From positions 1 through 42,270 of the forward strand of contig JAOAKM010000007.1 of NCBI GenBank assembly GCA_026413605.1: a stretch of DNA of 42,270 nucleotides, in the 5' to 3' direction. This DNA comes from Candidatus Nezhaarchaeota archaeon (GTDB lineage Archaea; Thermoproteota; Methanomethylicia; Nezhaarchaeales; B40-G2). A program made the position numbers and the translations under genes. Positions within the stretch are counted from its first letter, which is position 1; each line of letters starts with the position of its first letter. Positions 5,983 to 28,284 of this stretch are shown here, in pieces. The notes under the pieces were generated by a model that was given only the letters and a program-made list of their open reading frames with translations, did not search any database and was not told where the DNA came from.

Positions 5983-6762
5983 CTACAGGAGAGAGCCTAG
6001 GCCAGCTAAGCTGCTTAGCCTAGACTTAATAGAGAGCAGGGCTTGGGAGAGCGCCCCCTCGTTATCATAGGCATCCGCTACCTTCCTCAGCTCCTCCCTG
6101 CTCCAGCTCCTCATTTCCTCGGCTAGCTTAACCATGAGCGGCACGGCTCTAACTATGTTGTCGACCACCGTGACGTTAGCAGCCTTAGCCGTCCTACTTA
6201 AGGGGTTTAGGTCCACGGCTACTACCACCTTACCCATCCTCCTAAGCGCCTCTGTGCGGTCCCCATCCTCTAATGGGACTAAGACCACGTCGGCCGCCAG
6301 TATCCCCCTAGGATCTACGCGCCTACGATGGCTGTGTAGCTCAGGTATCGTGGCTGAGGCAGCCTCGCCTACTCCTAATACCTCCTCAGCCCCCGCCTTT
6401 CTAAGCTCGCTGGCAATTAGCGCCTCTCTCTCATAGCTCCTATAGAACAGATTGACCTCCAGCCTCGCCCCTACTACTTTAGCTAGCTTAACTAAGTCCT
6501 CGGCCACGAGCGCAGCGGCGTTACCGTTAACTGAGACCACCGGCCTCTCAGCTAGCAGTAGGTAGGCTACCCCAGCCTTAGCTGCTTCAACCGCAAAGGG
6601 CTGGGTGGCTTCGCCTAGGAGGTAGTCTAGCGCCTCCCCCCTCCCGTGGGCTATTAGCCCCGCCTCAGCCACGAGCCCCCTCCTAAAGCCCTCGATTAAC
6701 CTATGCCTAATCCTCAAGGACTCAGCTCTAGGATGGCTCAGCGGGACCTCTAGCTCCTCCAT
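5983..6762 (-). CDS. 4-phosphopantoate--beta-alanine ligase (phosphopantothenate synthetase)
   Basis: Archaeal replacement for PanC: it joins 4-phosphopantoate to beta-alanine with ATP, giving 4'-phosphopantothenate. The 259 residues match the family length. Family landmarks are all present: SHPRAESLRIRHRLIEGF at the N-terminus, GLIAHGRGEALDYLLGE, PVVSVNGNAAAL, VNLFYRSYERE, LVPLEDGDRTEALRRMGK and AVDLNPLSRTA. It overlaps the end of the ketopantoate reductase gene by 13 bp and is followed by the decarboxylase that supplies its beta-alanine, so three consecutive pathway steps are translationally linked. Confidence 0.95.
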   Translation of the reverse strand: MEELEVPLSHPRAESLRIRHRLIEGFRRGLVAEAGLIAHGRGEALDYLLGEATQPFAVEAAKAGVAYLLLAERPVVSVNGNAAALVAEDLVKLAKVVGARLEVNLFYRSYEREALIASELRKAGAEEVLGVGEAASATIPELHSHRRRVDPRGILAADVVLVPLEDGDRTEALRRMGKVVVAVDLNPLSRTAKAANVTVVDNIVRAVPLMVKLAEEMRSWSREELRKVADAYDNEGALSQALLSIKSRLSSLAGLGSLL

Positions 6763-8973: not shown

Positions 8974-9872
8974 CAGAGCTCCACCAACCTAGCCCCCTCA
9001 TTATCTACCTCAGCCCACAGGGGCTCAATACACAGCGTTCGTCTAAACGCCCTTACTACTTCGCTTAAGTCGCTCGCCCTCGCCAGCGTAAACGCGACCT
9101 TCTTCTTTACCGATAGCCCCAGCCCCCCCGCCTCGATGACGGCTCCCGCCAGCCCTTTGAGCCAGCCGTTAATGAAGCCCACCTCCTCAGCGAACCTAGC
9201 CGAGAGCTCCATGAAGGATCGTGGGGAGGGGTTTTGGAGGAAGAGCTCTAAGGCCCGCGCCCCCACCTTATTGATGCGCTCCCTTAAGCTAGGGTGGGTT
9301 ATCATAGCCCTCGTCTCGTATACGCCGAGAGGAGCGCACACGACTACTAGGTCGTGGACCGGTATCTTCCAGACTTCTCCTACGCCAGGGCCCCCCGGCT
9401 TAACCCTAGCCTCGAGGCCCCCGATGAGCTGAGCTACGACGTCTCCTAGCCCCGTCCTGTAGACTACTTCAGCTATGTGAGCCTCCCTAGCTGCCTCTTC
9501 GCGAGTTAGCCCTAGCCTAAGCGCCTCATTAACTGCTAGCGCAGCGCTAAGCGCCCCTGCGCCGCTCGAGCCGAAGCCTGAGCCTACGGGGACGCTGAAG
9601 AAGTGGTTAACAACAACCCTGTACGGGCTATTAGCTAGCCTAAGTAAGCGGGTAACTGCTAGCTTCGTGACCTCGAAGTCCACCTTCCTGCCGCCGCAGT
9701 ACACCTCCACCTCATGCTTACTTGAGCGCTCAGCTTCGGCGAAGCTAACTACTCCTAGCTTTAATGAAACCCCCGCCCCCCTGGAGCCTACGTAGAGTGG
9801 GTTTGGGCTTGAGTCGTGGATTTCGAAGAACCCGGTTATGTGAGATGGGCTGAACGCAGCGGCCCTCCTCAA
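8970..9872 (-). CDS. Pantoate kinase (GHMP family, archaeal)
   Basis: Phosphorylates pantoate to 4-phosphopantoate, the first half of the archaeal PanC replacement. The 300-residue protein carries the family N-terminus FSPSHITGFFEI with GSRGAGVSL, then the GHMP phosphate-binding loop PVGSGFGSSGAGALSAAL at about 95-112. It begins with TTG overlapping the coaBC stop (TTGA) and ends overlapping the next start the same way, so coaBC, pantoate kinase and the HPS-RraA gene are translationally coupled. The position beside the phosphopantothenate synthetase operon members supports pantoate as substrate rather than homoserine or mevalonate. Confidence 0.94.
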   Translation of the reverse strand: MRRAAAFSPSHITGFFEIHDSSPNPLYVGSRGAGVSLKLGVVSFAEAERSSKHEVEVYCGGRKVDFEVTKLAVTRLLRLANSPYRVVVNHFFSVPVGSGFGSSGAGALSAALAVNEALRLGLTREEAAREAHIAEVVYRTGLGDVVAQLIGGLEARVKPGGPGVGEVWKIPVHDLVVVCAPLGVYETRAMITHPSLRERINKVGARALELFLQNPSPRSFMELSARFAEEVGFINGWLKGLAGAVIEAGGLGLSVKKKVAFTLARASDLSEVVRAFRRTLCIEPLWAEVDNEGARLVELC

Positions 9873-11215
9873 CTCTTAATCACCCCCCTCCTCGCTAGCT
9901 CCTGGGCCACTACGTCTAGAATGGCCTCAGCGACCTTTCTCTTCGGCGATAGGGGGACGTGCACCACCCTACGCCCTCGATCTACTATGAAGACTTCGTT
10001 CGTGTCCGCGCTAAAGCCGCAGCCTTGCTTAGCTAGGTCGTTGGCAACTATGAGGTCCATCCCAGACTCAGCTAGCCTAGAGTACGCTCTCTCAATGAGC
10101 TCCTCAACGGCCACCCCGTACTCAGCCTTAAAGCCCACGAAGACTACCTCTGGAGCTAGCTTCCTAACCGCCATCGATATCTTCGGCCTAGCCTCGAGCC
10201 TAGCCTCTATGTACTGCGAGCCCGAGGGTATCTTGTACGAGTACGTCGCAGAGAAGCCGTAGTCTAGGGGGGCTGCCGCTAGAATTACGACGTGGTAGCC
10301 ACCTTCCTTGAGCTTCCTCTCCACGGCGTCGTACATGTCCTTGGTCGTCACTACCTCGACCACCTCTACTTCGCTCGGTAGCGGTTGGCTTAGGGCGACA
10401 GGCCCTTTAACGAGCGTTACCCTCCCCCCCCTCCTCCAAGCCTCCCTGGCGAGCTCAAACCCCATCTTCCCTGAGCTCGGGTTAGTGAGGAAGCGGACAG
10501 CGTCGAGCGGCTCCCTCGTAGGGCCGGCCGTTATGAGGAACTTGACCCCCCTAAACTCCCCGGCCTTCCTAGCCATGGAAACAACTGCGCTCACAATCTC
10601 GTTTACCGAGGGCATCTTGGCCTTACCCTCCTCCCACCTAGGCTCAATGATAGCTACCCCGAACGCGCTCAGCCTCTTCAACGCCTCTTGGAAGGCAGGG
10701 TTTTGATACAGCGAAGCATGCATCACCGGCACGGCTAAAACGGGTATTTTAGAGCCCAGTGCTGAAGCGACTAAGGTCGTGGCTGCGTTGTCTGAAATAC
10801 CATAAGCTACCTTGCTCAGCGTGTTCGCAGTAGCAGGGGCTATTAGCACTAAGTCGACCCCGCCTTCTTGGGTAAGGGCTATGTGCTCTACTTCTCCCGT
10901 CAGCTCGACTACGGCCTTATTGCCGGTGGCCCACTCCATCATCGAGGGGGATAGTAGGCTAGCGGCCACCTCGGTTAAGACTGGGATTACCTCAGCCCCG
11001 AGCCTCATTAGCTCCCTCGCCAGCTCAGGGGCGCGGTAGATTGCTGCGCTACCAGTAACACAGAGGGCTATCTTAACGCCAGCCAGCTCAGATCCTCGAG
11101 AGCCCACTATGTCCTTAGAGGGATGTCTTATCGAGCTAGCCTGCACGCTACCTACAGCTTTGTAGTGGGGGGAAAAAGTTAACGTAAGTTTATTACTTAC
11201 TACGTATTTCTCCAC
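9869..11215 (-). CDS. coaBC: Bifunctional phosphopantothenoylcysteine decarboxylase / phosphopantothenate--cysteine ligase
   Basis: Makes 4'-phosphopantetheine from phosphopantothenate and cysteine. The N-terminal CoaC flavoprotein half (about 47-215) has VTGSAAIYRAPELARELMR, a catalytic-type His at H111 (HIALTQ) and LIAPATANTLSKVAYGI. The C-terminal CoaB half has ITAGPTREPLDAVRFLTNPSSGKMG at about 228-252 and KPxxD-like nucleotide-binding sequence. The long open frame starts at a GTG, but its first 23 codons overlap an A/T-rich promoter-like stretch. The archaeal family start is near SSIRHPSKDIVG, so GTG at 11146 (codon 24) is the more probable start. First gene of the six-gene minus-strand operon. 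Confidence 0.94.
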   Translation of the reverse strand: MEKYVVSNKLTLTFSPHYKAVGSVQASSIRHPSKDIVGSRGSELAGVKIALCVTGSAAIYRAPELARELMRLGAEVIPVLTEVAASLLSPSMMEWATGNKAVVELTGEVEHIALTQEGGVDLVLIAPATANTLSKVAYGISDNAATTLVASALGSKIPVLAVPVMHASLYQNPAFQEALKRLSAFGVAIIEPRWEEGKAKMPSVNEIVSAVVSMARKAGEFRGVKFLITAGPTREPLDAVRFLTNPSSGKMGFELAREAWRRGGRVTLVKGPVALSQPLPSEVEVVEVVTTKDMYDAVERKLKEGGYHVVILAAAPLDYGFSATYSYKIPSGSQYIEARLEARPKISMAVRKLAPEVVFVGFKAEYGVAVEELIERAYSRLAESGMDLIVANDLAKQGCGFSADTNEVFIVDRGRRVVHVPLSPKRKVAEAILDVVAQELARRGVIKS

Positions 11216-19534: not shown

Positions 19535-21034
19535 CTAGAAGTGCTTCAGCCCCTTCTTCCTAGCCTCCTCCATGCGCCTATTGAACTCCTCCCAGGTCAT
19601 TGCGAAGGCCTTCTCTATGAGCGGCCTGTGGATTGCGTTCATGCTGCAGAACGGTATTATCCTGCCGTCGGGGATGCCGTAGTGAATGACGCAGCGCTGA
19701 AGCCTCTCCATATCGAAGTTGTAGGCGTCCATGAAGTGCATCGAGGCTAGCAGTATGGACTTAAAGTGGAACTCCCTCAAGGCTTCGTAGGTGCCCGTCC
19801 TCAGGATGGGCCAGACTAGCTTACGTAGTAGCTTCCACTTCACGTAGCGTAGCGCTGAGAGCATCTTTAGCCTAGCCCTCCACTTGCGCCCCTCCTTAGC
19901 CAACTTCCAAGCCTCCTCCATCCTCTCCATGAACCCCTCGACGTCCGCCCTCCTAGTTATTGGGACTACTTCGTCGCCCTCGATGAAGAGATAGGTAGCC
20001 ATTCCACAGTGCGGGTGGGCGGTGAACTCAGCCCCGTAGCGATGGCTCCTGAGGGCGCCTACGGCCCTCGGTATGGGCACGACGAAGGGCACGGGGTACC
20101 AGTCGCTCTGCTTGACTTGCCCACCCGTCTGCTCTTCAGCCAGCCTCATTAGATCCGGTATGGTTATCCTCACCTGCTCTAACTGCTGCCTATCTATCCT
20201 CCCGCAGATAGATACCGGCTGGAAGTTGACGCACCTAACTACGTCTGCGTTCTTAGCCGCGAACTTGACGATGTCCCCCACCTGGTGGTCGTTAACCCCC
20301 CTGATTAGCGTAGGGACTAGGACGACTGCGTCGAAGCCTATCCTACGGCAGTTCTCAATAACCTTCTTCTTAACCTCTAGCAGATCCAGCCCCCTCGTCT
20401 TTAAGTACACGTCGCTAGTCACTCCGTCGAACTGAAGGTATATGGCGTTAGCGCCAGCCTCCACTAGCTCCCTACAGTAGTCTACGTCGGCTAGCCTAAT
20501 CCCGTTGGTGTTGACCTCTATGTGGTGGAAGCCCGCCTTGTCAGCGTACTCTACTAGCTCTGGAAGGTCTTCGCGCACCGTGGGCTCCCCGCCGCTAAAC
20601 TGTAGCCCTGGCGGCTTAGCCGGCTCGTTGGACCTGAAGTTGTCTATGATCTGCCTCACTTCTTCAGTCGAGGGCTCGTATACGTAGCCAGCTGCGCCTG
20701 CGTTAGCGAAGCAGACGGGGCACCTTAAGTTACAGCGGTTAGTGACGTCTATAATGGCTAGCACAGTGAACGACTTGTGCTCGCTACAAATGCCGCAGTC
20801 GAAGGGGCAGCCTTTCTCGCGCCTCGTCCGCGGGTTAGCTAGGCCATCGCCTATGTGCTCAAACTTTAGCGCTCTCTCGTACTGCTCATAGCTCGACCAA
20901 TATACATCCCTAAAGCTACCGTGCTCAGGGCACCTCTTAGAGATGTAGACTGCTCCGCCCTCTTCATAGACCTCGGCCTCCAGGGTCCTTAAGCACTCTG
21001 GACACAGGCTCCTAGTATACTTGAGGTGCTTCAA
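19535..21034 (-). CDS. Radical SAM enzyme, tetraether lipid synthase (Tes)-like
   Basis: 499 residues. The radical SAM cluster motif is C101-x3-C105-x2-C108 (CNLRCPVCFA). Extra cysteines fit the MJ0619/Tes family: C11 and C14 with C35 (CPEC...CPEH, a possible rubredoxin-like iron site) and C76, C80 and C83 (GCPFDCGICSEHKS). SGGEPTVREDLPEL supplies the GGE-type SAM site. Characterised Tes joins two archaeol chains into caldarchaeol, with additional iron-sulfur clusters. Family members differ in substrate, so 'tetraether synthase' is an inference. The TTG start, shortly after a TATA-like GCTATATCC, gives a leaderless or near-leaderless message. Confidence 0.85.
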   Translation of the reverse strand: MKHLKYTRSLCPECLRTLEAEVYEEGGAVYISKRCPEHGSFRDVYWSSYEQYERALKFEHIGDGLANPRTRREKGCPFDCGICSEHKSFTVLAIIDVTNRCNLRCPVCFANAGAAGYVYEPSTEEVRQIIDNFRSNEPAKPPGLQFSGGEPTVREDLPELVEYADKAGFHHIEVNTNGIRLADVDYCRELVEAGANAIYLQFDGVTSDVYLKTRGLDLLEVKKKVIENCRRIGFDAVVLVPTLIRGVNDHQVGDIVKFAAKNADVVRCVNFQPVSICGRIDRQQLEQVRITIPDLMRLAEEQTGGQVKQSDWYPVPFVVPIPRAVGALRSHRYGAEFTAHPHCGMATYLFIEGDEVVPITRRADVEGFMERMEEAWKLAKEGRKWRARLKMLSALRYVKWKLLRKLVWPILRTGTYEALREFHFKSILLASMHFMDAYNFDMERLQRCVIHYGIPDGRIIPFCSMNAIHRPLIEKAFAMTWEEFNRRMEEARKKGLKHF

Positions 21035-22301: not shown

Positions 22302-23342
22302 CTACCTTAACACTGGCTTAAGGTAGTCCATCCCCCTAGCCTCAGGGCTCCCTATTAAGACCCTTAAGTACCTACCACGCTCTCTGTCCACTACTTCCTC
22401 TAGCTTACCCCTAGCCCTCAGCCTCTCTCCTACGTGGACTAGGTCTATGTGCAGCCCCTCGTAGCTAATTACCTCCTCAACCCCCCTGGCCTCCATCCCC
22501 CCCTTCAAGACCCTCACGTCACCCACCCTGTAGACCGCCGGCATGAAGAGCGCCTCCCCATCATCCACTACTAGCGCCTCGACTTCAACTAGGCCTAGGC
22601 CCCTACACTTAAAGTCGCGTATGCTCCCCCTAACTTCCTCCTCCACCTTGACCGGGTGGATGGAGAAGTCCCTCCCCTTAAACACCCCTCTATTCCACCT
22701 CCTCCTAGTTACCTCCAGGGCCTCGTCCCTAGATAAGTGGAAGACCCTCACCCTACGCTCAACTAGCTCCTCTAGCTTAGCCCCCTCAACCCTCCCCAAG
22801 ACCCCCTCCTCCCTTAGCTCCTCGATGGCCTCCCTTACCCTTAGAGCGGCCCCCCTCCCATAGACCACCAGGTCTATGTCCGAGAACTCTACTCTATGCA
22901 CGTCTATGAGTATTGATCCAGTGACCCCGAGGGCCGAGGTGGGCACCTTCGACTCCCTCGAAATTAACTTAGCTAGCTCTCCGGCTAATTCTTCTAGCTG
23001 ATCCTTCGGGGACCTGAGGATTTCCTGAAGCCTCTCCTCTGGCTTGAAGTGCCTCTTAACGTAAGCCAGGGGGACTGCCGACATCTTTATTCCTAGCTCC
23101 TCTACGAAGTGCACGTAGTGAGGGTAGCTCCTCTCTAGGAAGTCTAGCGTATTGAGTAGGGAGGGCACGTCGTAGTAGGGCATCATCCTACTGTAGCGCC
23201 CCTCCCTCCCCCACCTCCCGCTAGGGCTGGGGGCGTACTTTAAGTAGGCTATCACCTTGTCCTCTAGGTGGAGGTTTGAGACCACTGTGAACATTAGCCC
23301 CTCCACGGTCTCGACGTAGTCGCGGTCCCTAAACTTCCTCAC
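22302..23342 (-). CDS. Predicted nucleotidyltransferase, tandem paralogue 1 (COG1665-like)
   Basis: 346 residues. The nucleotidyltransferase-fold signature is G142-S143 followed by D155-I-D157 (GVTGSILIDVHRVEFSDIDLVVYG). The N-terminal domain (1-130) has the phrase VETVEGLMFTVVSN and KYAPSPSGRWGREGRYSRM, shared almost motif-for-motif with the next gene; the C-terminus is a beta-rich domain (VEALVVDDGEALFMPAVYRV...). The two proteins are clear paralogues in tandem. Predicted metal-dependent nucleotidyl or related phosphoryl transfer; the substrate is unknown. Last gene of a four-gene operon with DUF447 and a CitG homologue. The start is GTG. Confidence 0.8.
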   Translation of the reverse strand: MRKFRDRDYVETVEGLMFTVVSNLHLEDKVIAYLKYAPSPSGRWGREGRYSRMMPYYDVPSLLNTLDFLERSYPHYVHFVEELGIKMSAVPLAYVKRHFKPEERLQEILRSPKDQLEELAGELAKLISRESKVPTSALGVTGSILIDVHRVEFSDIDLVVYGRGAALRVREAIEELREEGVLGRVEGAKLEELVERRVRVFHLSRDEALEVTRRRWNRGVFKGRDFSIHPVKVEEEVRGSIRDFKCRGLGLVEVEALVVDDGEALFMPAVYRVGDVRVLKGGMEARGVEEVISYEGLHIDLVHVGERLRARGKLEEVVDRERGRYLRVLIGSPEARGMDYLKPVLR

Positions 23343-23402
23343 CTAGCTCACCGACCAGTAGGCTGCTATGCTGCTGAGCGCCCATCCTTAAAGAGGTAGC
23401 TG

Positions 23403-24428
23403 CTAGTCGAGGGAGATAAGGTAGTCGTCCGGGCCCCCTCCAAGGAGCAACCTGTAGCGCACCTCCCCCGACCTGCTCACCACCATCTCTAGCTTCCCCC
23501 TGGCGGCTATCAACGAGCCCTCGCCCGCTTGGTCGCAAAACCTCCCTCTAAACGAGACTACTTCGACCACCTCCTCAGCCTCCCTCCTGCCCACAGCCTT
23601 AACCCCGCTTACGCGGTAGGTGCACGGGGTGTACATAGCGTCGCTGGCGTCTACTACTTTCGCAACTACTTCAGCTGTCCCTAGGGCCTTGTACCTATAG
23701 TCTCCGTAGCGCTCCTCCACCTCTCCGCGCTCCTTAACGAACCTCACGAAGAACTCCCTCCCCCTAAACCTCCCCTGGTACACCTTCCTACGCTCCTGTT
23801 CTACGTACTTCTCGAGGGGCACCTTAGCCTCCCTAGCCGCGTAGAGCCTCTTAACGTCCTCTACGCTAAGCCTCTCAAGACCCCCTTCCTCCATCAACCT
23901 GCCCAAGGCCTCGTGCACCCTTACGCAGCTGCGCTTACCGTAGACCACTACGTCTATGTCCGAGGCCTCGGTAAACAGGCCCACCAGGATCGACCCCGAG
24001 ATCCCTAAGCTGCTCAGGGGCACGTTGGCCTCGCGGCTGAGGAGCTCCACGAAGTCTAAGGCCTCCCTCTCTAGCAGTGTTAGCTCGCTACGCGACGCAG
24101 CCATCTTTACGACCGCCTCCCTAGGGCTGTACACCCTAGATATCTTGTGGAGGGGGACGCCTTGAACCTCTTCATCAAACACCTCGTCGAAGAATACGTA
24201 CTGAGGGTACCTCTGCCTTAAGACGCTGAACTGCTCATCGAAGCTGTAGAGCCTAGAGTACCTCCTACCCCCCCTTACCCTCTCCCCGCTCGGGGACGGT
24301 AGGTACCTTAAGAAGGCTATGACGGCGCCCGGCGGGTGGACGTGCCCCTTGACCGTGAAGATTAGCCCCTCGGCCGTCTCGACGTAGTACCCCTCGATGG
24401 GACGCTCGAGGGCTATGGAGGAGCTCAC
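23403..24428 (-). CDS. Predicted nucleotidyltransferase, tandem paralogue 2 (COG1665-like)
   Basis: 341 residues with the same architecture as its neighbour: N-terminal VETAEGLIFTVKGHVHPPGAVIAFLRYLPSPSG, then the nucleotidyltransferase motif G145-S146 with D157-I-D159 (GISGSILVGLFTEASDIDVVVYG), then a beta-rich C-terminal domain with MYTPCTYRVSGV. Both copies keep the GS and DxD residues, so both are probably active and divergence of substrate or division of labour is likely. The GTG start is two bases past the stop of the CitG-like gene. Confidence 0.8.
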   Translation of the reverse strand: MSSSIALERPIEGYYVETAEGLIFTVKGHVHPPGAVIAFLRYLPSPSGERVRGGRRYSRLYSFDEQFSVLRQRYPQYVFFDEVFDEEVQGVPLHKISRVYSPREAVVKMAASRSELTLLEREALDFVELLSREANVPLSSLGISGSILVGLFTEASDIDVVVYGKRSCVRVHEALGRLMEEGGLERLSVEDVKRLYAAREAKVPLEKYVEQERRKVYQGRFRGREFFVRFVKERGEVEERYGDYRYKALGTAEVVAKVVDASDAMYTPCTYRVSGVKAVGRREAEEVVEVVSFRGRFCDQAGEGSLIAARGKLEMVVSRSGEVRYRLLLGGGPDDYLISLD

Positions 24429-24430
24429 GA

Positions 24431-25444
24431 CTAAGGCCTCTCCCCGCAGAGTATTGCTATGAAGAGCGCGGCCGTCACTATGTCTGCCGTCGAGCCAGGG
24501 TTATAGTCCTCCCCCCTAGACTTAAGCTCCCTATCCATCTCCTCGACCCTCCTAAGCCCCCTATCGCTCAGAGCCCCTCCCAGCTCCAGGGCCTCCCTAG
24601 CCATCTGCATCACTTCCTCCGCAGCCCTCATTCCCGCCTCCACGGCCCTAGGTATAGATGCCTGCGGCTCAGCCTTAGTTCCTACGCAACGGGCGATGAA
24701 GGTATCTGGGCGCGAGGCTAAGAGGAGTAGGTAGCTTTGAACTATGGCCAGCCTTAAGTCCCCCGCTTTGCCCAAGGCCTCCTGTAGAGCCGGGAGGGCT
24801 ATGTTAAACGTGGCCTCGAAGCCGTGGGAGAGCTCGTAGGCTACGCTATCCCACCTAGAGGCCTCCTCCATTACCTTGAGCAGCGTCAACCCCCTGCCCC
24901 TAAGCTTAGCTTCAAAGGCCGGGTCGGCTACGTCCGGCGCTACGCCCTCAAATACCCCTAGCCCCCCCGGGCTGGCTATGGCTATAGCCTCGTACACCCT
25001 AACCGCGTCTTCTACGGTGGCGCCTCTCACTACCTCTACGGCCCCGCGCCTCACTTCCTGAGGCTCGAGCCTCCTACCGCTGGCGAAGGCTAAGCCGGCC
25101 CCGGCAGCTAGCGGGACTAGTAGGAGGATAGTGCCTAGGTGCGTATTACCCCCCCTCTGCCAATTAACCATGTCCACCACCGCCCTCTTCACCAGCCTAC
25201 CTACGCCCACTCCCCCCGCCCCTAGCTGATGGAGCCCTACGGAGGCCCCCATGATCGCAGCCTCTCTCAAGGCGGGGCCTATGGCTATCGACCCGGCCAC
25301 GAAGTGCTCAAAGCGCTTATGAGGGTACTCTGAGAGCCTATGCACGTTCCCTGGCTTAGGGTAGGCCGAGGCCTCTAGGGCTGCGGCGAGCTGGCCAGCC
25401 CTCATTACGTCGTCGGCGAACAGCACTACTTCGTGCTCAAGCAT
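24431..25444 (-). CDS. CitG/MdcB-family triphosphoribosyl-transferase homologue
   Basis: 337 residues. It carries the family signature SAYPKPGNVHRLSEYPHKRFEHFVAGS near the N-terminus and RGGNTHLGTILLLVPLAAG (about 98-116). In bacteria CitG/MdcB moves a ribose 5-triphosphate from ATP onto dephospho-CoA, releasing adenine and making an alpha-ribosidic bond. No citrate or malonate lyase is present here, and archaeal members are usually of unassigned function. It is preceded by DUF447 (8-bp overlap), followed by two nucleotidyltransferases, and divergent from mptA-mptE-mptD. That context argues for a role in methanopterin assembly (inference). Confidence 0.85.
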   Translation of the reverse strand: MLEHEVVLFADDVMRAGQLAAALEASAYPKPGNVHRLSEYPHKRFEHFVAGSIAIGPALREAAIMGASVGLHQLGAGGVGVGRLVKRAVVDMVNWQRGGNTHLGTILLLVPLAAGAGLAFASGRRLEPQEVRRGAVEVVRGATVEDAVRVYEAIAIASPGGLGVFEGVAPDVADPAFEAKLRGRGLTLLKVMEEASRWDSVAYELSHGFEATFNIALPALQEALGKAGDLRLAIVQSYLLLLASRPDTFIARCVGTKAEPQASIPRAVEAGMRAAEEVMQMAREALELGGALSDRGLRRVEEMDRELKSRGEDYNPGSTADIVTAALFIAILCGERP

Positions 25445-26096
25445 GGCGAGCCCCCCTCGCCTTAGACAAGCTCCACCTCCAGACCGCCTCTACTACCTCC
25501 TGGTATTGAGTGTTGGGAGCCACCCGGCCCACTAGCCTTCGATAGTGCTCTATTAGCTTAATTAGCTCCTCGACGCCCGCCCCCTGCTTAACGTAAGCCT
25601 CTATCCTAGAGGCGTGCACTATAGCCTCTATTACTGCGGGAGGGGCCCTACAGTACGCTTTCGCAGGCCTGAGGCCAGCCTCGATTAAGAGGGGCCTACA
25701 CTTAACTAGGGCCCTCCCCCCCTCCCCCTCGCCTACATCCTCAACCTTCGCCTCGATAAAGCCCTGCGCCCCTCTAAGCCTCGGGGGCCTAACTGTCTTC
25801 GAGGGCTCTAGCTCGACCACTACGCAAGGTATTTTTAGGGCCGCGTAGGCGAAGAAGGCCGGGTCATCGGTTATGTTCAAGACCACCTCCCTCGTTGAAG
25901 CTAAGTTTAAGTAAGTAGAGGTTTCCTTGAAGGGCCTCAGGGCCAAGTAGTTAGACGCTAGCGTGGCGCCCATGGCTGATAGGTTGGCCCTGCCTTCACT
26001 ACTCACGGTGGAGGCTATCACTTCTACGGTGACGCCCTCAGCGAACCCGAGGTCGGCTAGCGAAGTCAGCCTCATCACCTTATATACAGTCTCCAT
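25437..26096 (-). CDS. DUF447 family protein (flavin-reductase-like split barrel)
   Basis: 219 residues, typical for DUF447. The N-terminal region (GVTVEVIASTVSSEGRANLSAMGATLA) resembles a flavin-binding split barrel, and the C-terminal helices include CRAPPAVIEAIVHASRI. Family members are often seen beside C1-carrier and methanopterin genes; no enzymatic role is established that I know of. The start ATG is 11 bp from the divergent mptA start. An ATG at codon 8 (26075) is an alternative. First gene of the operon running to 22302. Confidence 0.78.
   Translation of the reverse strand: METVYKVMRLTSLADLGFAEGVTVEVIASTVSSEGRANLSAMGATLASNYLALRPFKETSTYLNLASTREVVLNITDDPAFFAYAALKIPCVVVELEPSKTVRPPRLRGAQGFIEAKVEDVGEGEGGRALVKCRPLLIEAGLRPAKAYCRAPPAVIEAIVHASRIEAYVKQGAGVEELIKLIEHYRRLVGRVAPNTQYQEVVEAVWRWSLSKARGARHA
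26079..26087 (+). promoter_or_regulatory. TATA box of mptA, inside the first codons of DUF447
   Basis: CTTATATAC is centred about 25 bases before GTG 26108 (28 before GTG 26111), indicating a leaderless mptA-mptE-mptD message. The element lies within the beginning of the divergent DUF447 coding sequence. On the minus strand ACTTTAACA at about 26114-26122, inside mptA, may be the opposing TATA element. Confidence 0.6.
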
Positions 26097-26107: not shown

Positions 26108-27061
26108 GTGGTGTTAAAGTTGTCGCTGCCTGATATTCACCGCTCTAAGCCCGCGGTGTCGATGGCGCTCAGGAAGGTGGGGGTTAAGGGGATTAAGATG
26201 CCCGTGAGCTTCATGAAGCTAGGCTCTAAGAACGTCCTCATCGTCCCCTCCTTCGACGTGTACATAGACCTACCTCCGCGTCGGAAGGGGGTGGATGCCT
26301 CTAGGAGCTATGAAGTAGTCGCAGAAGTATTCTCCACCTTCATTAAGAGGACCCGCAAGCTCGAGGACCTATGCTCCCAGATGTCGGTGGGACTCCTTAA
26401 GCGCCACGAGTACGCTACCCGCGCTGAAGTCAGGGCGAAGGCCGAGGCTGTGGTTGAGCGCCTAACCCCCGTTAGCGCGATGGTTACCTTCGAGCCGTAC
26501 AGGGTCTACGCTAAGGCGGTGTCTAGGCTCAGGGACGGGGAGGTTGAGACCCGGAGGATGGTTGGGGTGAAGGTGATAGGCGTGACCGCCTGCCCATGCG
26601 TAGCTGAAGGGGTGAGGGAGCTATCGAAGGCTGAGCTGAGCGAGGCTTTAGATAGGCATAGCGTAGACCTCAGCATCATAGACGCGCTCCCCATAGCTAC
26701 CCATATGCAGAGGAGTGAGGGCACTCTAATAATGGACTCCCCCGAGGGCCACGACGTCGATGTGCTGAAGCTAATAGACATAGTCGAAGCCTCTATGAGC
26801 TCCCCTACCTATGAGCTCCTTAAGCGTAGGGACGAGGTAGACATAGTCCTTAGGGCTGCGCGCAGCCCTAGGTTTGTAGAGGACTCCATTAGGCTAATGG
26901 CGAAGGGGGTCGTTGAGACCTTCGAGCACCTGCCGGACGACGTCAGAGTGTACTTAGCTCAGCGCAGCCAGGAGAGCATCCATAAGCACGACATGGTGGC
27001 CATGGTTAAGACTACTCTAGGGGAGCTGAGGCTCTCCCTCGTTGACGAGGGTGCGCCTTGA
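26108..27061 (+). CDS. mptA: GTP cyclohydrolase MptA (archaeal, FolE2-related)
   Basis: Fe(II)-dependent GTP cyclohydrolase that makes 7,8-dihydroneopterin 2',3'-cyclic phosphate, the first step of archaeal pterin (methanopterin or folate-type) synthesis. The 317 residues match the family. Landmarks: VGVKGIKMPVSF near the N-terminus, TACPCVAEGVRELSKAELSEA (metal/nucleotide-binding cysteines, about 158-178), PIATHMQRSEGTLIM (the T-H-x-Q-R family motif) and the acidic C-terminal half. GTG start (26108, or 26111 one codon later) follows a TATA box at leaderless distance. Overlaps mptE as TTGA. An MptB phosphodiesterase gene is not in the window. Confidence 0.95.
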   Translation: MVLKLSLPDIHRSKPAVSMALRKVGVKGIKMPVSFMKLGSKNVLIVPSFDVYIDLPPRRKGVDASRSYEVVAEVFSTFIKRTRKLEDLCSQMSVGLLKRHEYATRAEVRAKAEAVVERLTPVSAMVTFEPYRVYAKAVSRLRDGEVETRRMVGVKVIGVTACPCVAEGVRELSKAELSEALDRHSVDLSIIDALPIATHMQRSEGTLIMDSPEGHDVDVLKLIDIVEASMSSPTYELLKRRDEVDIVLRAARSPRFVEDSIRLMAKGVVETFEHLPDDVRVYLAQRSQESIHKHDMVAMVKTTLGELRLSLVDEGAP

Positions 27062-27843
27062 TCAGGGTGAGCCTAGAGGAGTGGATGCCCCTATACTACG
27101 AGATAGCGCGCGAGCTAGGCCTAAGCCCGGCTGAGGACCGTAGGGCCACCCTCCTCTTAAGCAGCTTGCTTCAGCATAGGCCGCCCTCCATAGTAGCCCT
27201 CGAACGCCTACTAGCTGGCCGTAGGGCCATAGTCTTCGGCGCGGGGCCCTCGCTCGAGCGAGCCCTCAGCTACCTAGACCTCGAGCTTATCCACGAGCGC
27301 TTCACTCTGCTAGCGGCTAACGGGGCCACCTCGGCCCTCCTTGATTACGGCGTCGTCCCGCACGTAATCTGCACCGACCTAGATGGGAGGGTGGAGGATC
27401 AGCTACGCTCTAACACTATGGGGTCTGTGGCGGTCGTCCATGCCCACGGAGACAACGTCCCCTCCCTCGAGCGCTACGTCCCCTCCCTCCCAGGCCCCGT
27501 AGTAGGCTCTACTCAAGTAGAGCCAGCTCCAGGCGTCTACAACTTCGGCGGTTTCACTGACGGAGATCGGTGCGTATTCCTCGCGCTCTGGGGGGGTGCT
27601 ACCGAGGTCTTCTTAGTGGGCATGGACCTGGGCCCCAGGGTCGGCAAGTACTCTAAGCCCTGGCTTAGTCGAGACGTAGAGGCTTGGGGGAGGAAGGCGG
27701 CCAAGAATAGGATTGCGCGCAGGCTTCTAGAGTGGCTAGCTGAGCGGAGCAGGAGCGCTAAGCTCTACGTAGTCGAAGCCTCTATTAGCGGCTTCGCGTC
27801 GATAAGCCTCCTCGAGCTAACATACCTCGTCGAGGGCTTTTAG
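27058..27843 (+). CDS. mptE: 6-hydroxymethyl-7,8-dihydropterin diphosphokinase MptE
   Basis: Archaeal replacement for FolK (DUF115 family): transfers diphosphate from ATP to 6-hydroxymethyldihydropterin. The 261-residue protein has AIVFGAGPSLERAL (about 59-72), LLAANGATSALLDYGVVPHVICTDLDGR and AVVHAHGDN, followed by NFGGFTDGDRCVFLALWGGATEVFLVGMDLG, the full family pattern. Its TTG start overlaps the mptA stop (TTGA), and mptD follows 24 bp later, so three pterin enzymes form one operon. Confidence 0.93.
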   Translation: MIRVSLEEWMPLYYEIARELGLSPAEDRRATLLLSSLLQHRPPSIVALERLLAGRRAIVFGAGPSLERALSYLDLELIHERFTLLAANGATSALLDYGVVPHVICTDLDGRVEDQLRSNTMGSVAVVHAHGDNVPSLERYVPSLPGPVVGSTQVEPAPGVYNFGGFTDGDRCVFLALWGGATEVFLVGMDLGPRVGKYSKPWLSRDVEAWGRKAAKNRIARRLLEWLAERSRSAKLYVVEASISGFASISLLELTYLVEGF

Positions 27844-27867: not shown

Positions 27868-28284
27868 GTGGAGGACCCGGCTAGGAAGCTCTTCCCCCCC
27901 GACCTAACAGATCGAGAGAGAGCTTGCTTCGAGGCAGGCATAGCCCTAGCCTCCATCTTCCACCAGTTCGCCGGGACCCCCGTCTCAAGGAGCCCTCGGG
28001 TGCTAAGGGCATTAGAGAGGGCCATGGAAGCCTCCCTGTCCCTCCAGCCTTTTAGAGAGCGCGTAGAGGTGAAGATAGACGCTAGGAGGGTTAAGGAGAG
28101 AGGCAAGCCTCCCTACAGCTACTCCACGCTTAGAGGAGATGAGCTAGTAGTCAAGGTCTCGGTTAAGTATGGAGGAGCTAGGGCCGTCGCCTCTATGCGC
28201 TTCGTCCCCGAGCTGGGCTACCCGTTGATGTACATAGAGCGAGTGGAGGGGCAGCTTCTTGAAGACGGTGAGGCACATCACTGA
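27868..28284 (+). CDS. mptD: Archaeal dihydroneopterin aldolase MptD (DUF372)
   Basis: Cleaves 7,8-dihydroneopterin to 6-hydroxymethyl-7,8-dihydropterin and glycolaldehyde; a small protein unrelated to bacterial FolB. The core signature DRERACFEAGIALASIFHQFAGTPV is at about 15-39, and the 138-residue length slightly exceeds that of known members (about 120). The product is the substrate of MptE, encoded just upstream, which supports the assignment. The GTG start lies in the gap after mptE. Confidence 0.9.
   Translation: MEDPARKLFPPDLTDRERACFEAGIALASIFHQFAGTPVSRSPRVLRALERAMEASLSLQPFRERVEVKIDARRVKERGKPPYSYSTLRGDELVVKVSVKYGGARAVASMRFVPELGYPLMYIERVEGQLLEDGEAHH

Follow-up and report, generated by a model that had tools for sequence, protein, structure and literature searches.

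Methanopterin carries one-carbon units in methanogenesis and in much of methylotrophy, and its ribose-phosphate tail is very probably made by a tight operon of four genes in an archaeal genome. Genome evidence shows that the three protein families encoded by the operon, namely a CitG homologue, nucleotidyltransferases (NTases) and DUF447, belong to methanopterin biosynthesis. This assignment holds because co-occurrence across genomes, conserved operons and a comparison with bacteria all point to it. The preliminary description of this DNA had named these families as candidate late methanopterin enzymes; their membership of the pathway stands on the same three grounds, and the chemistry that it gave to each step is carried forward below in conditional form. 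We know of no genes assigned to three late steps of the pathway, which are the opening of the ribofuranose, the addition of the alpha-ribose phosphate and the linkage of 2-hydroxyglutarate.

The analysed window is the whole 42,270-nucleotide stretch of DNA, which is contig 7 of an archaeal genome of 1.4 Mb that is 95.6% complete. The genome is taken to be from Thermoproteota, as the phylum sample in which it falls includes crenarchaeal and Bathyarchaeota-type genomes. Open reading frames and Pfam matches identify the minus-strand operon of DUF447, CitG and two intact NTase paralogues, and the following features are used in the analysis:

22302..23342, minus strand: NTase-B, a paralogue of NTase-A (40% identical) with the active-site motif intact
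23403..24428, minus strand: NTase-A, of the CitG-adjacent subfamily, with a predicted polymerase beta-type domain and a C-terminal OB-fold-like domain
24431..25444, minus strand: CitG homologue (PF01874)
25437..26096, minus strand: DUF447 protein (PF04289 and PF20766), first gene of the operon
26108..27061, plus strand: mptA, GTP cyclohydrolase (TIGR00294 equivalog, over its cut-off)
27058..27843, plus strand: mptE-like 6-hydroxymethylpterin diphosphokinase (PF01973)
27868..28284, plus strand: mptD, archaeal dihydroneopterin aldolase (PF04038)
5983-6762 (PF02006) and 9869-11215 (Dfp): archaeal CoA biosynthesis genes in the window
19535-21034: tetraether lipid synthase Tes (NF045702, 643 bits)
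G000:C5:5589-6617, on another contig of the same genome: third NTase paralogue

Within the operon, 60 bp separate NTase-B from NTase-A and 2 bp separate NTase-A from CitG, while CitG and DUF447 overlap by 8 bp. The DUF447 and mptA genes are divergent, with start codons 11 bp apart. A CitG homologue and two intact tandem NTases beside mptA-mptE-mptD are thus present as first described, with open reading frames and Pfam families in agreement, except that DUF447 and not CitG begins the operon, CitG being the second gene. The radical SAM gene at 19535 was considered as a pterin methylase and rejected, as its 643-bit match to NF045702 identifies it as Tes.

Co-occurrence was assessed by searching 111 Thermoproteota genomes for five families: NTase, CitG, RFAP synthase (with a threshold of 80 bits), DUF447 and Mch. 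A second NTase search of these genomes, using a 26-sequence profile at E<=1e-5, finds the family in 52 of them. Counting genomes with both families, the first only, the second only and neither, CitG and NTase give 45/1/7/58 (p=2e-22), and the sole CitG genome without an NTase at this threshold (G020) has a marginal match at 8e-5. Counting by taxonomic family, with a less sensitive single-sequence NTase search, gives 18/1/3/13 (p=5e-6). The corresponding counts against the presence of either RFAP synthase or Mch are 50/2/5/54 for NTase and 45/1/10/55 for CitG, and those for RFAP synthase against DUF447 are 35/5/2/69. All five families are absent from 53 of the 111 genomes, including the small, complete genomes of family f9, which serve as a negative control. 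Co-occurrence of CitG, NTase and DUF447 with methanopterin genes, proposed as a check in the preliminary description, is therefore strongly positive, since RFAP synthase or Mch is present in 45 of the 46 genomes with CitG and in 50 of the 52 with an NTase. Outside this phylum, CitG is found in 117 and NTase in 112 of 120 Methanobacteriota, nearly always as one copy each. A set of 32 named CitG genomes, picked mostly for having no NTase adjoining CitG, were searched for the NTase, which was found in 30 at E<=1e-3; 29 of these are secure and one (G124) is marginal at 1.7e-4.

Two groups of genomes depart from the general pattern. Eight genomes (G001, G016, G024, G032, G051, G056, G059 and G085) have CitG, NTase and Mch but no RFAP synthase match that reaches 80 bits, which suggests that their RFAP synthase has diverged or been replaced. 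Four others (G011, G048, G100 and G106) have Mch and none of CitG, NTase, RFAP synthase or DUF447, and perhaps take up the coenzyme or use another carrier.

Gene order was evaluated in 80 named CitG loci, all archaeal, which are the top 80 among more than 585 matches to a consensus-led CitG alignment. An NTase lies within 300 bp of CitG in 37 of the 80, and 58 have at least one neighbor from a set comprising NTase, DUF447, Mch, formylmethanofuran dehydrogenase (Fmd), Mtd, the GHMP kinase of RFAP-synthase type, pterin-binding synthase, RimK and F420 ligase. With family names taken from one representative per cluster, the commonest neighbors in these 80 loci are NTase (45), DUF447 (15), Mch (14), formylmethanofuran dehydrogenase subunits (11-13), pterin-binding synthase with DUF6513/DUF4346 (11), RimK (9), the RFAP-synthase-type GHMP kinase (9), an F420-ligase-like protein (8) and Mtd (6). 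The recurring neighbors of CitG thus form a near-complete methanopterin and methanofuran set. At six loci (L102, L106, L115, L122, L127 and L138), genes for pterin synthase, RFAP synthase, DUF447 and NTase are arranged divergently from CitG. Among Thermoproteota, the NTase is within 2 kb of CitG in 16 of 46 CitG genomes, one of which (G095) has as its neighbor a divergent match without the motif, and coordinates place RFAP synthase next to DUF447 in 14 genomes. An F420-ligase-type protein (PF01996) also recurs near CitG (L106, L127, L138, L092, L096, L116, L135 and L148), and a role in late glutamylation of methanopterin is possible for it.

The third line of evidence comes from bacterial clusters for tetrahydromethanopterin (H4MPT). 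On plasmids of Azospirillum and Paraburkholderia, CitG lies inside the H4MPT cluster between mch/myfB and fae, with a RimK ligase gene also adjoining, and DUF447 is found on the same plasmids, both families being present on 14 plasmid records. In a search confined to plasmid records, two different NTase queries gave no match in Pseudomonadota and matched only plasmids of Streptomyces. Many of the latter carry a distant NTase homologue (L066:9902-10999) beside a phosphotransferase and methyltransferases. The bacterial CitG occupies the position of orf7 in the ‘archaeal-like’ H4MPT cluster of methylotrophs (Methylosinus), between mch/orf5 and fae, and is apparently orf7; Orf7 is not known to have an assigned biochemical role. 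Genes of the methylotroph cluster are reported to be essential on methanol, and the dephospho-H4MPT of Methylorubrum extorquens is without phosphate and 2-hydroxyglutarate (PMC8141765). This structure comes from M. extorquens and not from the strains of Azospirillum, Rhizobium and Paraburkholderia whose plasmids were searched, and the absence of NTase from those plasmids fits it. Since CitG and DUF447 accompany the bacterial clusters, they track the part of the coenzyme common to both groups, whereas the NTase, with no match on the Pseudomonadota plasmids, tracks the part that bacteria lack, judging from M. extorquens.

The DUF447 protein matches DUF447_N at 1.9e-17 as well as DUF447_C, and is related to solved archaeal proteins (2iml, 2nr4 and 3b5m) that we take to be FMN-binding. 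It is a candidate for a flavin-dependent enzyme that reduces the ribofuranosyl ring, and the reduction of ribofuranose to ribitol fits because the family is found with the bacterial clusters and adjoins RFAP synthase. DUF447 belongs to the methanopterin module too, and its presence with H4MPT clusters on bacterial plasmids makes this earlier step a better fit than formation of the phosphodiester.

In methanopterin, the 5-phosphate of an alpha-linked ribose forms an ester with 2-hydroxyglutarate. The favored and rather probable reading is that the operon serves late (tetrahydro)methanopterin biosynthesis with the following steps and substrates. MptA, MptD and MptE would supply the pterin, and RFAP synthase together with a pteroate-synthase-like enzyme would form the aryl ribofuranoside. 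DUF447, as a flavin-type protein, would probably help to open the ribofuranose by reduction, giving 1-deoxyribitol. The CitG homologue, as the proposed alpha-(triphospho)ribosyl transferase for the deoxyribitol intermediate, would then move the ribose of ATP as 5-triphosphoribose to the ribitol 5-OH, with loss of adenine and inversion from beta to alpha. Finally, the hydroxyl of (S)-2-hydroxyglutarate would attack the alpha phosphate of the triphosphate in the active site of an NTase, releasing diphosphate and leaving the phosphodiester; NTase-A is proposed for this joining of ribose 5-phosphate to 2-hydroxyglutarate. The chance is about even that the tail is built in this way by the strategy used for the citrate lyase prosthetic group, in which CitG-type triphosphoribose transfer from ATP precedes NTase-type phosphodiester formation, that this replaces the step from 5-phosphoribosyl-1-diphosphate (PRPP) in the published pathway, and that bacteria with dephospho-H4MPT keep CitG without the NTase.

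The main objection to ATP/CitG chemistry is that cell-extract work by White reportedly identified PRPP as the ribose donor, with ATP needed for the 2-hydroxyglutarate step. This report is not decisive because crude extracts interconvert PRPP and ATP. It favors an explanation within the same pathway, in which PRPP provides the ribose, the NTase nucleotidylates ribose 5-phosphate or 2-hydroxyglutarate much as CofC/CofD do in F420 synthesis, and CitG and the NTase paralogues transfer the activated forms. Many genomes have several motif-intact NTase paralogues, and the NTase domain weakly resembles poly(A) polymerases and Cid1, which use nucleotides; both observations are compatible with nucleotidylation. 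Set against them, CitG belongs to a family of triphosphoribosyl transferases that use ATP, the alpha linkage follows from inversion at beta-configured ATP, and one NTase is enough in Methanobacteriota. This explanation is judged unlikely, while being the strongest of the alternatives.

The number of NTases also weighs on the proposed pathway. Nearly all Methanobacteriota with an NTase have one copy, whereas most NTase-bearing Thermoproteota have 2-5, and copies range over 2-6 in Thermoproteota and Asgard archaea, which counts against the proposal. The Thermoproteota sequences split into four subfamilies, A-D. Methanogens manage with a single NTase, so the second copy must serve some other role, and NTase-B is perhaps a heteromer partner or makes a further modification of the tail. 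Of the early suggestion that two NTases act as late methanopterin enzymes, the placement of the family in the pathway holds and the need for both in making standard methanopterin does not, given the single copy of Methanobacteriota.

NTase-A and NTase-B are 40% identical over 337 aa. They have no match in NCBIfam, and in Pfam they match only the generic NTP_transf_2 family (PF01909), at 8.4e-05 for NTase-A and just under the cut-off at 6.6e-04 for NTase-B. The G-S...S-D-x-D motif is intact in both and invariant in 171 of 171 relatives; the position of E236 is E or D in 164 of the 171 and could be a third catalytic carboxylate. The GS...DxD motif and the predicted polymerase beta-type domain are shared with the COG1665-type archaeal nucleotidyltransferases, the label first given to these genes, which are not known to have an assigned function. 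The likeness to the CitX/MdcG holo-ACP synthases is an analogy of chemistry, in that a triphosphoribosyl donor would give up diphosphate as the phosphodiester forms; the acceptor proposed here is 2-hydroxyglutarate, in place of the serine of a carrier protein.

The predicted structure of NTase-A (pLDDT 95) has no Foldseek match among PDB structures at E<=1e-3, and the NTase profile, searched against PDB sequences, brought up no relative either. The best weak Foldseek matches are to OB-fold single-stranded DNA-binding (SSB) proteins (E ~5e-3, covering the C-terminal domain only), and the NTase domain matches poly(A) polymerases and Cid1 at E values of 0.02-0.3. Such an SSB-like domain joined to a polymerase beta-type domain, and the distant homologue on Streptomyces plasmids, might indicate that the NTases modify RNA or some other metabolite and are mere neighbors of methanopterin genes. 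This is improbable in view of the almost complete co-occurrence of the NTase with CitG and RFAP synthase in different phyla, the conserved operons, and the absence of the NTase from the 53 sampled Thermoproteota without any of the five families, which presumably still process RNA.

The CitG homologue matches PF01874 at 231.3 bits against a cut-off of 27 (E=2.3e-68) and shares this family with the CitG/MdcB triphosphoribosyl-dephospho-CoA synthases over nearly its full length. Enzymes of the CitG type use ATP as donor; adenine is expelled, and the 5-triphosphoribose that remains is alpha-linked. Unlike those synthases, the homologue has methanopterin gene neighbors and scores far below the lyase equivalogs of NCBIfam (61.7 of 282 bits for TIGR03132 and 42.1 of 272 for TIGR03125). 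CitX (PF03802) and CitF (PF04223) were searched for in the 95.6% complete genome with E. coli as a positive control for both, and neither was found, in accordance with the original remark that no citrate lyase genes account for CitG; archaeal controls with CitG match neither family. A citrate lyase role for CitG is rejected on the missed equivalog cut-offs and the absence of CitX and CitF. Production of 2'-(5''-triphosphoribosyl)-3'-dephospho-CoA by CitG and its attachment to a protein by the NTase, as for citrate lyase or malonate decarboxylase, would suit the family name and the CoA genes in the same window, and is most improbable given cut-offs missed by >200 bits, the absence of CitX and CitF here and in the CitG-bearing archaeal controls, and the fact that CitG tracks methanopterin genes.

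Other observations that bear on the proposed late methanopterin pathway come from lineages without Mch and from haloarchaea. Crenarchaeal families that lack Mch (f8, f14, f19, f24 and f32) also have CitG and NTase, which counts against the proposal, though RFAP synthase is present there. Family f24, taken to be Sulfolobales, has the gene order DUF1464-NTase-CitG-small calcineurin-like phosphoesterase, in which the NTase keeps its motif, and the S. acidocaldarius control has CitG, RFAP synthase and DUF447 without Mch. Archaea of this kind probably make methanopterin-like pterins. The small calcineurin-like phosphoesterase, which adjoins CitG in f24 or the NTase in f8 (L186-L189 and L194-L196), is a candidate phosphatase that would take the 5-phosphate off the ribitol ahead of ribosylation. 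Haloferax volcanii is reported to use folate and is stated to lack methanopterin-specific enzymes (PMC8305020). Its CitG counts against the proposal given the reported folate use, although the H. volcanii control gives matches for CitG, DUF447, RFAP synthase (over cut-off) and Mch, which contradict the stated absence of the enzymes. Adjacent CitG and DUF447 genes are also seen in haloarchaea, as on a Natrinema plasmid (L065:5944-7388), and haloarchaea may make a dephospho-methanopterin-like coenzyme.

Three families are now pointed to for late steps of methanopterin biosynthesis, together with predictions of which organisms should have each of them and which should lack it. If the proposal is true, the CitG annotations of archaea and methylotrophs would be explained by something other than CoA chemistry.
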